This document shows positions 1-41,377 of a DNA stretch of 64,000 nt, in pieces (position 1 is the first letter of the stretch; the number at the start of each line of letters is the position of its first letter). The notes below the pieces were generated by a model. The model ran no database searches, had not been told where the DNA came from, and saw nothing but the letters and a program-made list of their open reading frames with translations. The position numbers and the translations under genes are program-made. Source of the stretch: Gemmatimonadota bacterium (GTDB lineage Bacteria > Gemmatimonadota > Gemmatimonadetes > Gemmatimonadales > Gemmatimonadaceae); assembly GCA_021324635.1 (NCBI GenBank), contig JAJPIS010000077.1:1-64000 (forward strand). The letters run 5' to 3'.

Positions 1-1032
1 CCCGCCGGCGGCGGACACGACCTGGTTGGTCAAGAACTGGCTAGAACTCAGCGTCACTGCGTGGGGTGCCGTGTGAGTTTTCGAGGACGGGATTTGGTAC
101 GAGACGGCGCCCCCCCAGGCACTCCCCCCCTGCCCGCCGGTCCCCCCGGCGCCGCCTGTGCCGGTGGCGGCGTTGCCGGCCCCGCCGGCCCCGCCCGCCC
201 CGCCCGGCCCCCCCGCCCCGCGGCCCCCCGGGCCGCCGGCCGTCCCCCCGCCCGGGCCGGCGGGGCGGCGCGCCGGGTCGTCGAAGTGGTGCTTGATCTG
301 CTTCCCCTCGGCGAGAAAGACGGCGTCCTCCCCGATGTTGGTCGCGAGATCCGCCACCCGCTCGAGGTTCCGCCCGACGAGGATCAGCTCCAGCGAGGCC
401 GTGATGTTCCGCGCGTCGGCCATCATGTGGGTGAGGAGGATACGGAAGAGCGAGTTGAGGAGCGCGTCGACGGCATCGTCCGAGCGGCACACCTCGCGGC
501 CGAGCGCCCCGTCGGCGCGGATGAACGCGTCGAGCGCGTCGCCGAGCATGCTGCGCGCGCGGCGGGCCATGTCCTCGATCTCGGGCTCGGGCGTGATCGT
601 GGAGCGGATCGCGATCAGCCGCTGCGCGCACTGCGCGATGTTGACGGCGTGGTCCCCGACCCGCTCGAGGTCGCTCGAAATCTTGATCGCGCTGACAATG
701 AAACGAAGGTCGCGCGCCATCGGTTGCTGGAGCGCGAGCAGCTCGACCGCGAGCCCCTCGACTTCGACCTCCAGCGCATCGAGCTCGCGATCGCCGGTGA
801 TCACCGCCTCGGCGCGGTCCTGATCCCGCTTCAGCAGCGCGTCGACGGCGAGGTCGACCAGCCCTTCGGCGCGGTCCGACATCGTCAGCAGCCGCTCCTT
901 GAGCGTCGCCAACTGGTCGTGGAAGTGGCGGAACCCCGACGGCGTGTCGGCCGTCGGAGTACCCACAGCGGGCATCGACGGTGGCGCCGACGCGAGCGGG
1001 GAGGGCGAGGGAGAAGACGGTGGCGACATCAT
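1..1032 (-). CDS. phoU: Phosphate transport regulator PhoU, partial (C-terminus runs off window start), with long Gly-rich tail
   Basis: My own minus-strand translation (frame open to base 1, so absent from the ORF track): ...[38 protein letters not shown]...[28 protein letters not shown]...; ATGA overlap with pstB stop. Confidence 0.85.
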
Positions 1033-1874
1033 CCGAACCTGCCTGTAATGTACGAGTTCGTCCGCTCTTCGCGCGGGGCCGTGAACATGCGCTCCGTCGA
1101 CCCCACCTCGATCAGGCGACCCAGATAGAAGAAGGCCGTGTAGTCCGATGCCCGCGCCGCCTGCTGGAGATTGTGGGTCACGATCACGATCGTCAACTCG
1201 CGCTTGAGCTCGAAGATCAGCTCCTCGATCTTCTGCGTCGCGATCGGGTCGAGCGCGCTCGCCGGCTCATCGAGCAGCAGCACCTCGGGATCGTTGGCGA
1301 GGGTCCGCGCGATGCAGAGCCGCTGCTGCTGACCCCCGGAGAGGGACAGGGCGCTCTGACGGAGCCGGTCCTTGACCTCATCCCACAGCGCCGCCCGACG
1401 GAGCGACGCCTCGACGATCTGGTCGAGCTGAGCACGCGGCAGCGAGGTGTTGATCCGCGGGCCGTAGGCGACGTTGTCGTAGATCGATTTGGGGAAGCAG
1501 TTCCAGCGCTGAAAGACCATCCCCACGCGGCGGCGAAGGGTGGTCGGGTCGACCGACGGGTCGTACACGTCCCGCCCGTCGAGCAGGATCTTCCCCTCGT
1601 GGCGCGTGCCGGGGACGAGGTCGTGCATGCGGTTGACCGCGCGCAGGAACGTCGACTTGCCGCACCCCGAGGGGCCGATGAGGGCGGTGATCGTCCGGGG
1701 CGCGATGTCGAGGTCGATCTCGGTGAGCGCCTGCTTCGCCCCGTACCAGAACGAGAACCGCCGCGCGGCGACGCTCCCGCGCGCGGCCTCGCTCCCCGGC
1801 GGCCGGAGCATGCCACCGCTGGCCGCGACGCCCGCCGCGCCCGCCGCGCCCGCCGCCGGTGCCGGCGCGGTCAC
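1029..1874 (-). CDS. pstB: Phosphate ABC transporter ATP-binding protein PstB (copy 2)
   Basis: Walker [26 protein letters not shown] signature, [21 protein letters not shown]; lies within ORF 1029..2159, start approximate. Confidence 0.93.
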
Positions 1875-39699: not shown

Positions 39700-40377
39700 A
39701 TGAAGATCTCGGTCAAGCAGGTTGTCACACTCGGAGTCGTCGCGCCACTGATGGCGGCGTGTGTCAAGGCGAGTAGCTATCACCGCGAGCTGGCGCAGAC
39801 GCGCGCGCAGATCTCGCAGGAGAAGCAGGAGCGTCTCGCCGCGGACAGCGCGCAGAACGCGGACATCGCCGGCGTCAAGACGGACGTGCAGGGATTGCGG
39901 AACGATCTCCAGAATCTGCGCACCGAGTTCGGTGCGAAGATCACCGCTCTCGAGTCCGGGATCCAGTTCGACATCCCGGTGAACTTCGCGTTCGACGACG
40001 CGTCGGTGCGCGATCAGGATCACGCGTCGCTCGACCGGTTTGCGAGCGTGGTGGAGAAGTACTATCCGGGCGCGAAGATCACGATCGAAGGGTTCGCCGA
40101 CCCGTCGGGCAGCAACCGCTACAATGTCGCCCTGTCGCAGCGTCGCGCCGACGCCGTCCGGGACTATCTCGTGGGCAAGGGCGTCGCCACGACCGATCTG
40201 CGTACGATCGGCTACGGCAAGACGCGGCTGCTCGTTCCCAACGCGTCGCACGATGACCCGGGCGCCGAGCAGAACCGCCGGGTGACATTCGTGATCGAGA
40301 CCAAGAGCGAGAACGCGCCCACCCCCGGCAAGACGACCGCCAGCGCGGCGAACGGCAGCACGATCGCCGGCCAGTAG
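39700..40377 (+). CDS. OmpA-family lipoprotein (Pal-like)
   Basis: MKISVKQVVTLGVVAPLMAACVK lipobox; OmpA domain ITIEGFADPSGSNRYNVALSQRRADAVRDYLVGKGV; NRRVTFVIE. Confidence 0.88.
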   Translation: MKISVKQVVTLGVVAPLMAACVKASSYHRELAQTRAQISQEKQERLAADSAQNADIAGVKTDVQGLRNDLQNLRTEFGAKITALESGIQFDIPVNFAFDDASVRDQDHASLDRFASVVEKYYPGAKITIEGFADPSGSNRYNVALSQRRADAVRDYLVGKGVATTDLRTIGYGKTRLLVPNASHDDPGAEQNRRVTFVIETKSENAPTPGKTTASAANGSTIAGQ

Positions 40378-40443
40378 TCGTCGCGACCGAGTTCCCCGGG
40401 CAGACCCGGGCGTCCCCCGTCGGGGCGCCAGGGTGCGGAGCGA

Positions 40444-40479
40444 ACGCAGGCCGGGTGCATGGACGCACCCGGCCTGCGT
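40444..40479 (+). terminator. Strong hairpin downstream of the OmpA-family gene, possible terminator
   Basis: Perfect 15-bp inverted repeat ACGCAGGCCGGGTGC-ATGGAC-GCACCCGGCCTGCGT; no U-tract. Confidence 0.55.
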
Positions 40480-40537
40480 GCATCCGGGGCGGCGATCATG
40501 GTGATGGGCGACGGGACCCGATACCTTTGAGACCGAG

Positions 40538-40861
40538 GGGCCGGTAGCTCAACGGGTAGAGCAACGGACTTCGTGAAACCATGGAGCACCGCATCGGAAA
40601 CGGTGCGCGTGAATGCGCTCAACATCGGCGAACGGTGTGAGATCCCAACGCCGAGCCAAGCCGTGCTCCTCGGGGCGCGGAAGGTGTAGAGACTCGACGG
40701 GCGCCACCTGACCGCCGCGGGGAGCCGGCACGATCCGCGGGCGCAGGTGAAGACAGAGTCCAGACCACGAACGTGTGGCGCGCAGGTGGCGCGGCGCGGC
40801 GGCGAAAGCCGAAGTGGGAGAGTTAATCCGTAGGTAGTGGGTTCGAGCCCCACCCGGCCTG
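40538..40861 (+). tRNA. tRNA-Lys(UUU) interrupted by a group I intron; exons 40538-40571 and 40823-40861
   Basis: Joined exons GGGCCGGTAGCTCAACGGGTAGAGCAACGGACTT|TTAATCCGTAGGTAGTGGGTTCGAGCCCCACCCGGCCTG (73 nt) fold as a cloverleaf with loop CUUUUAA; CCA not encoded; G1-U72 wobble. Confidence 0.92.
40572..40822 (+). ncRNA. Group I intron (IC3-like), 251 nt, in the tRNA-Lys anticodon loop
   Basis: R element GGTGTAGAGACTCGACGGGCGCCACC (40683-40708), S element AAGACAGAGTCC (40750-40761), P7 GACTC/GAGTC, Q-like CGCCGAGCCAAGC, P4 CGGCG/CGCCG; 5' exon ends in U, intron ends in G, P1 CUU/GAG. Confidence 0.93.
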
Positions 40862-41254
40862 TTCCGACGTGCCACCCCCGGGCGTGCGACCATCGCGCGC
40901 CTGATGCTACGGGAGCGATGCAGCCGCGGCCCAGCTGCCCCGCACGTGCCGCGTGCGTACCCTGCGCGCAGCCCACTTGCATCGCGACTCGCGCCGCACT
41001 CGCTGACCCGTGGCGCCACCGTCGCGTTGCATCGCGCGCACACGCCGCCGACGCCCGTGCGCCGGCCGAAACATTGGGGCTGGCGCACTCAGCCGCACCG
41101 CTGTACGTTGCCCGCCGTCAGCGTGACGGGCTCGACCATCCTCGCGTCATCACGACGTCGTGTGGTGTGCGACCGACGCGCACTGACGATCGATTCCGGC
41201 GCGGTCCACACGAAGGTGGATCGCCGTGAGTAACCCGGCGCGATCGCTCCCCTG

Positions 41255-41356
41255 CTGAGGGGCTGCGACAAAGGCAAACCCGGCGAAAGCCGGCGACGCA
41301 AAGCTTCGAGGCTACGGTCTGCGCGCGAGCTGCGCGGGCTACGCCAGTCGGGCCGC
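41255..41356 (+). promoter_or_regulatory. c-di-GMP-I (GEMM-I) riboswitch aptamer
   Basis: AAAGGCAAACCCGGCGAAAGCCGGCGACGCAAAGCTTCGAGGCTACGG...CTACGCCAGTCGGGCCGCC, matching the GEMM-I core (GCAAACC, GAAA loop, GACGCAAAGC); about 20 nt before the ATG at 41378; boundaries approximate. Confidence 0.9.
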
Positions 41357-41377
41357 CGAACAGACGCAGGAGGAGTC

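Follow-up and report, generated by a model that had tools for sequence, protein, structure and literature searches.

tRNA-Lys(UUU) of a Gemmatimonadota bacterium carries a small bacterial-type group I intron in its anticodon loop

The window, a 64,000-nucleotide stretch on contig C102 of a bacterium of the family Gemmatimonadaceae, comes from a draft assembly of 4.09 Mb in 127 contigs with 96.8% completeness. It carries a tRNA-Lys(UUU) gene on the plus strand at positions 40538–40861, split after U34 by a 251-nt insert (40572–40822). Intron-permitting ARAGORN reported tRNA-Lys(ttt) of 73 bases with a 251-nt intron at 34-35 (gactt before and ttaat after the junction). As a control, the joined exons were given alone to ARAGORN and again returned tRNA-Lys(ttt) of the normal 73 nt with the loop CTTTTAA, while no tRNA was found across the window without the intron option. 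These calls, including the one on the spliced sequence that an earlier note on this DNA had proposed, agree with its description of a 251-nt insert after U34 and a 73-nt cloverleaf with the loop CUUUUAA. The stems and loops of the cloverleaf with anticodon UUU are intact, and CCA is absent from the encoded 3' exon.

The neighbours of the gene are ordinary: rimM, trmD, rplS, rnhB, a short-chain dehydrogenase gene, and an OmpA-family gene lie upstream, and a c-di-GMP riboswitch and a beta-helix protein gene lie downstream. The riboswitch (c-di-GMP-I-GGC, 59.1 bits, 41264–41361 on the plus strand) is located 17 nt ahead of the gene, whose product is a right-handed beta-helix protein of 573 aa. 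No sigma-70-like promoter or terminator match was found for the interrupted tRNA gene. The intron contains no ORF of at least 80 aa that could encode a homing endonuclease, in line with the lack of an intron ORF noted earlier. Two antisense ORFs (40212–40982 and 40549–41088) span the intron and look spurious.

Table 1. Features of the interrupted tRNA-Lys(UUU) gene and predicted helices of its intron (window positions)
Feature	Positions	Strand	Basis or remark
5' exon of tRNA-Lys(UUU), nucleotides 1-34, ending ...GGACUU (U34)	40538..40571	+	ARAGORN -i and spliced control
Group I intron, 251 nt, 69% G+C, terminal G at 40822	40572..40822	+	RF00028, ARAGORN, leave-one-out model, covariation
3' exon of tRNA-Lys(UUU), nucleotides 35-73	40823..40861	+	ARAGORN; 3'-exon comparison
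P1: exon CUU (40569-40571) with guide GAG (40584-40586), U.G at 5' splice site	40569..40586	+	
P1 extension (CGUG/CAUG)	40572-40575 with 40580-40583	+	
P2: 7 bp, GAAA tetraloop 40597-40600	40590..40607	+	
P3: GCGCUC (40615-40620) with GGGCGC (40699-40704)	40615..40704	+	4/6 pairs changed on both sides among relatives
P4: UCGGC (40625-40629) with GCCGA (40650-40654)	40625..40654	+	
P5: GG (40634-40635) with CC (40644-40645)	within 40625..40654	+	
P6: CCGUGC (40661-40666) with GCGCGG (40675-40680)	40661..40680	+	
P7 (pseudoknot with P3): GACUC (40691-40695) with GAGUC (40756-40760)	40691..40760	+	last pair varies: C-G, G-C, A-U, U-A
P8: CACC (40705-40708) with GGUG (40746-40749), extended distal arm	40705..40749	+	
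P9.0: CCAC (40765-40768) with GUGG (40814-40817)	40765..40817	+	
Distal P9 hairpin, GAAA loop 40804-40807	within 40765..40817	+	

The termini of the insert are those of a group I intron: the terminal U of the 5' exon (U34) pairs with the G of the guide GAG, with four extension pairs added, and the final intron nucleotide is G. Of the helices named in the earlier note, P7 (GACTC/GAGTC) is as described, together with the terminal G, and P1 (CUU/GAG) was found, lengthened by four intron pairs. P4 is also present, but its pairing is slightly shifted from the proposed CGGCG/CGCCG. Rfam model RF00028 matches 40562–40777 with 31.8 bits (E 1.1e-5), under its gathering score of 50, which is a curation cut-off and not a biological definition; clear relatives (e.g., L224 and L309, the phage-like and plasmid loci described below) likewise reach only 36–38 bits. 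A leave-one-out model built from relatives (R2), from which the window intron and the tRNA-Lys intron of family genome G063 were excluded to avoid circularity, scores 40613–40772 at 95.5 bits (E 1.9e-23), its sole match in the 64 kb.

Among 13 aligned cores with 28 pairs, including P7, 99.7% of the pair cells are standard, and changes on both sides occur in 58 cells of 14 pairs. None of 500 shuffles reached the covariation score of 0.469. Pairing fell to 26%–48% in controls with slid partners, a one-base slide giving 47%. The covariation result was repeated with 45 pairs in 18 full introns; the MAFFT alignment of the latter puts P1 wrongly in some rows, and this helix was checked by hand. The last pair of P7 is C-G in the window, G-C in Actinomycetota, A-U in tRNA-Leu introns, and U-A in G063, while P5 swaps GG/CC and CC/GG among relatives. 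The P3-P8 core, including the P3/P7 pseudoknot, is thus backed by covariation. The minimum-energy fold without pseudoknots departs from this core model and is merely 2.1 s.d. below shuffles. The traits of subgroup IC3, namely homology to bacterial tRNA introns, absence of P5abc, and GAAA loops on P2 and P9, were all found. Judged by its sequence, the insert is almost certainly a self-excising, IC3-like group I intron of the small kind that occupies bacterial tRNAs. The reading of a group I intron with a correct ribozyme core at U34/N35 of tRNA-Lys(UUU) is supported.

In a comparison that serves as a lead only, the intron resembles the IC3 introns of cyanobacterial and plastid tRNA-Leu(UAA), of which that of Anabaena is the type example, in the U34/N35 site, the CUU-GAG pairing, the small core without P5abc, the lack of an ORF, and the core motifs GAGCCAA and AAGGTG(T/C)AGAGACT...GACGG. 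In the same comparison, it differs from them in its tRNA-Lys(UUU) host, its occurrence in Gemmatimonadota, its high G+C content, and its long P8 and P9 arms. Proteobacterial IC3 introns in tRNA-Ile(CAU) (Azoarcus and Burkholderia/Acidovorax) and in tRNA-Arg(CCU) of Alphaproteobacteria share the core and a guide matched to a U-ended anticodon-loop exon, but they sit after U36 and in other hosts. Model R1, built from relatives, recovers these alphaproteobacterial tRNA-Arg(CCU) introns, as well as those in tRNA-Leu(UAA) and tRNA-Lys. The nearest relatives are introns of the same family in tRNA-Gln(CUG) (G113) and tRNA-Leu(UAA) (G119 and G011), with 77% core identity between the window and tRNA-Gln introns. 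They differ in host tRNA, and the one in tRNA-Gln also in its site (U35/N36) and guide (GGA). The tRNA-Lys(UUU) introns of Microbacterium, Nesterenkonia, Frankiales, Prauserella, Tsukamurella, and others have the same host, site, and guide GAG as the window intron. However, they form a separate clade (support 99/99), and their exons, unlike those of the window, retain A73 and a pyrimidine at position 48.

Accounts of bacterial tRNA introns usually name four hosts. In the searched papers, the hosts given for group I introns are tRNA-Leu, fMet, Ile2, and Arg (PMC8450103, PMC4033280, PMC3984707, PMC5733544). No ribozyme-length group I intron in a bacterial tRNA-Lys was reported in the searched literature, outside which most subscription journals lie, so priority is not established. 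The "group I intron" published for cyanobacterial tRNA-Lys(CTT) (PMC5733544) was rejected as a precedent, since at under 50 nt it is too short for a group I ribozyme. The earlier note had regarded tRNA-Lys(UUU) as a non-classic host; it is indeed unusual in the literature, but it is not unique. One pattern scan of 85,462 species genomes revealed 43 further tRNA-Lys(UUU) loci interrupted at the identical junction, and the host is therefore no lone oddity. Forty of these loci belong to Actinomycetota (mostly Microbacterium and Nesterenkonia), two to Alphaproteobacteria, and one to Gemmatimonadota. The scan pattern was fitted to the 3' exons of tRNA-Lys and is therefore uninformative on other hosts; introns of other lengths were missed. 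Because the splice junction is ambiguous, ARAGORN labelled some tRNA-Lys(UUU) loci as Asn(GUU), SeC, or Arg; their terminal G, the pairing of the guide, and A73 settled the identity of these loci. In even samples, model matches were found in 13 of 298 Actinomycetota genomes and 30 of 191 genomes of the alphaproteobacterial class. The strong matches lay in tRNA-Leu(UAA), Arg(CCU), Lys(UUU), Lys(CUU), Thr(GGU), Leu(CAA), and initiator Met; for several of them, the host was assigned from an ambiguous junction. Nesterenkonia alkaliphila F10 has two interrupted tRNA-Lys(UUU) loci (L099 and L107) on different contigs. In four alphaproteobacterial loci (L160, L175, L178, and L179), introns with the guide GGAG interrupt tRNA-Lys(CUU) or tRNA-Lys(UUU) after U35 rather than U34, which is a second insertion site within tRNA-Lys.

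Introns of this class were also observed on mobile elements. Of the 80 IMG/VR loci that carried the core motif (viral contigs including L224, L237, L246, L266, L223, and L206), 58 gave a tRNA call with an intron, often within tRNA arrays. Most of the hosts were tRNA-Leu(UAA); the others included Arg(UCU), Lys(UUU), Lys(CUU), and Met/Ile(CAU). L237 and L246 bear phage-type genes, and the phage-like contig L224 has an interrupted tRNA-Lys(UUU) at 1081–1337 on the minus strand. A 2014 review placed all phage group I introns within protein-coding genes (PMC3984707). Directly downstream of the interrupted tRNA-Lys(UUU) of L224 is an ORF of 122 aa (674–1042, minus strand) with CxxC and HH motifs, HNH-like by eye; a Pfam search of it yielded zero matches, and it is possibly a free-standing homing endonuclease. 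The conjugative plasmid pCTX-M3 (NC_004464.2, about 61.8–62.1 kb; L309:1087-1385, plus strand) carries an intron-bearing tRNA-Leu(UAA) scoring 140.3 bits with R2, which adjoins an AAA ATPase gene and aac(3)-IId. The similarity of this tRNA to tRNA-Leu of Alphaproteobacteria might point to where the aac(3)-IId resistance segment came from. The window intron was matched by 1254 plasmid records, mostly enterobacterial.

The intron class is present in 5 of 180 genomes of the family: in tRNA-Lys(UUU) of the window genome (G000) and G063, in tRNA-Leu(UAA) of G119 and G011, and in tRNA-Gln(CUG) of G113. At the orthologous locus of the congener G017, the OmpA gene is followed by an intron-free tRNA-Lys(UUU) whose two halves are directly contiguous and show 94%–97% identity to the window exons. 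Because the class is rare in the family, this favours gain in the window lineage rather than loss in G017. Short blastn matches in G112, G034, G095, and G015 were dismissed as chance, having neither a tRNA nor the core motif. The RF00028 matches over 399 genomes of the phylum, mostly other group I introns without an ARAGORN tRNA, were set aside. Two further arrangements were seen in the family. In the congener G044 (C108; L036:1498-1567, minus strand), the sole tRNA-Lys(UUU) anticodon without an interruption belongs to a 3' half with a replaced 5' half, like a remnant of an element integrated in tRNA-Lys. In G113 (L033), a second, truncated, uninterrupted copy of the 5' half precedes the interrupted tRNA-Gln(CUG), like an integration-site duplication.

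The 3' exon of the window tRNA has A48 (40836) and G73 (40861), two deviations that the earlier note overlooked. In the 70 tRNA-Lys(UUU) genes compared (43 interrupted loci and 27 intron-free genes of the family), position 73 is always A and position 48 always C or U; both features are expected of a functional bacterial tRNA-Lys(UUU), and both are missing here. For bacterial class II enzymes, A73 belongs to the lysine identity bases; in Escherichia coli it acts as a determinant for lysine, and G73 reduces the acceptance of lysine, a suppressor partly inserting glutamine (PMC9976931). The window genome encodes a class II lysyl-tRNA synthetase (G000:C84:7370-8824; TIGR00499, well above the cut-off), and no class I enzyme reached the cut-off. 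No other tRNA-Lys(UUU) was found in the assembly, as the earlier note had proposed to check, and the uninterrupted anticodon pattern was absent too; tRNA-Lys(CUU) is intact elsewhere in the genome. A Leu-like class II tRNA whose anticodon is UGG (Pro) and whose loop has C33 was also observed there (L068; G000:C17:87432-87517). In eight genes, 2 of the 45 lysine codons are AAA, and one AAA lies in the L19 gene; because this codon is rare, weak function of the tRNA might be tolerated. With G73 and A48, lysine charging is doubtful, and the tRNA after splicing may be weakly charged or in decay. Possible explanations of these two bases are relaxed selection, a sequencing error, and a second gene missing from the assembly.

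Taken together, the locus very probably holds a compact IC3-like group I intron of the bacterial tRNA class, which interrupts tRNA-Lys(UUU) between U34 and N35 of its anticodon loop and is spliced by its ribozyme core. In the predicted pathway, the precursor would fold so that exon CUU pairs in P1 with intron GAG, while helices P3-P8 make up the catalytic core. Guanosine would attack after U34, and the freed 5' exon would then attack after the terminal G at 40822, joining the exons into the UUU anticodon. Having no homing endonuclease, the intron is at present probably inherited along with its gene. We infer from the sequence both the splicing of the intron and the function of the spliced tRNA. 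A chance arrangement or an assembly artefact, for which only the fragmentation of the draft into 127 contigs would speak, is practically negligible: the locus lies in the middle of a 91-kb contig, the same arrangement recurs in independent genomes, and the E value of the leave-one-out model is 1.9e-23. Splicing looks intact. A more substantial, though still rather unlikely, alternative is that the intron splices or did so recently in a tRNA that is decaying or charged with another amino acid after losing A73 and the pyrimidine at 48, AAA being read by an unassembled second tRNA-Lys(UUU). The uniqueness of G73 and A48 among 71 genes points that way, as do the class II synthetase with no class I enzyme above the cut-off, the effect of G73 in E. 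coli (PMC9976931), the rarity of AAA, and the 96.8% completeness of the assembly. Yet AAA codons occur, including the one in the L19 gene, with zero other tRNA-Lys(UUU) found, the cloverleaf stems and loops are intact, and the ribozyme core is without decay.

As to how the intron reached this tRNA, guides track the host exon: GAG-CUU in Lys and Leu, GGA-UCU in Gln and Lys(CUU), GGG-CCU in Arg, and GCC-GGU in Thr, with U.G at the splice junction in every case examined. The core tree (145 columns, 26 of 46 inner branches open) is poorly resolved, and therefore only constrained tests were used. They rejected one clade of all tRNA-Lys(UUU) U34 introns (p-AU 0.009) and a grouping in which the window intron joined the Actinomycetota clade (0.016) or alphaproteobacterial introns (0.030), but not one with the G063 tRNA-Lys intron (0.22); these values are indicative only, because the groups were chosen with the tree in view. 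The nearest relative of the window intron in the tree is the tRNA-Gln intron of G113 (support 87/96, not starred). Vertical descent from one ancient tRNA-Lys(UUU) intron lost in most lineages would account for the host and site shared across Gemmatimonadota, Actinomycetota, and Alphaproteobacteria. It is nevertheless improbable given the first two rejections, the closeness to the tRNA-Gln intron of the same family, and the presence of the class in so few family genomes. Rejection of a single origin instead favours repeated colonisation of tRNA-Lys and movement via guide retargeting, by which the window intron would have come from the intron of another tRNA. Reverse splicing would fit as the route, with whole-gene delivery or recombination as the alternative and phage contigs carrying such tRNAs as another vehicle. 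That the window intron came along with an entire intron-bearing tRNA gene, through recombination or with a phage rather than by retargeting within the genome, is unlikely, if less so than vertical descent. Phage-like contigs do carry tRNAs with this intron class, including the tRNA-Lys(UUU) of L224, and the two 3'-exon changes leave room for a short-tract exchange. However, the locus is syntenic with that of G017 and its exons are 94%–97% identical to the G017 tRNA-Lys, so that a short tract at most was exchanged. The movement between tRNAs proposed in the earlier note is thus supported in part, by family relatives in tRNA-Leu and tRNA-Gln with host-matched guides and by the rejected single origin. 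A broader picture remains tentative, its chances somewhat short of even: IC3-like introns may roam the anticodon loops of bacterial and phage tRNAs (Leu, Lys, Gln, Arg, and Thr), reaching any loop U through a change of three to four guide letters. They would have colonised tRNA-Lys(UUU) at least twice, aided in crossing phyla by phage tRNA arrays, and would reside here in the only tRNA-Lys(UUU) of the genome, whose identity bases are eroding.

The intron itself is real and well supported; its kind is known, its host is under-reported, and it belongs to a wider pattern of host switching. With a lysine host in three phyla and host-matched guides, the site change of group I introns becomes testable in sequence data. 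For annotation, standard tRNA callers without an intron search miss such genes, as ARAGORN did in the window, and an essential tRNA can therefore look absent. The window copy also raises the question of whether such an intron can persist longer than its host tRNA.
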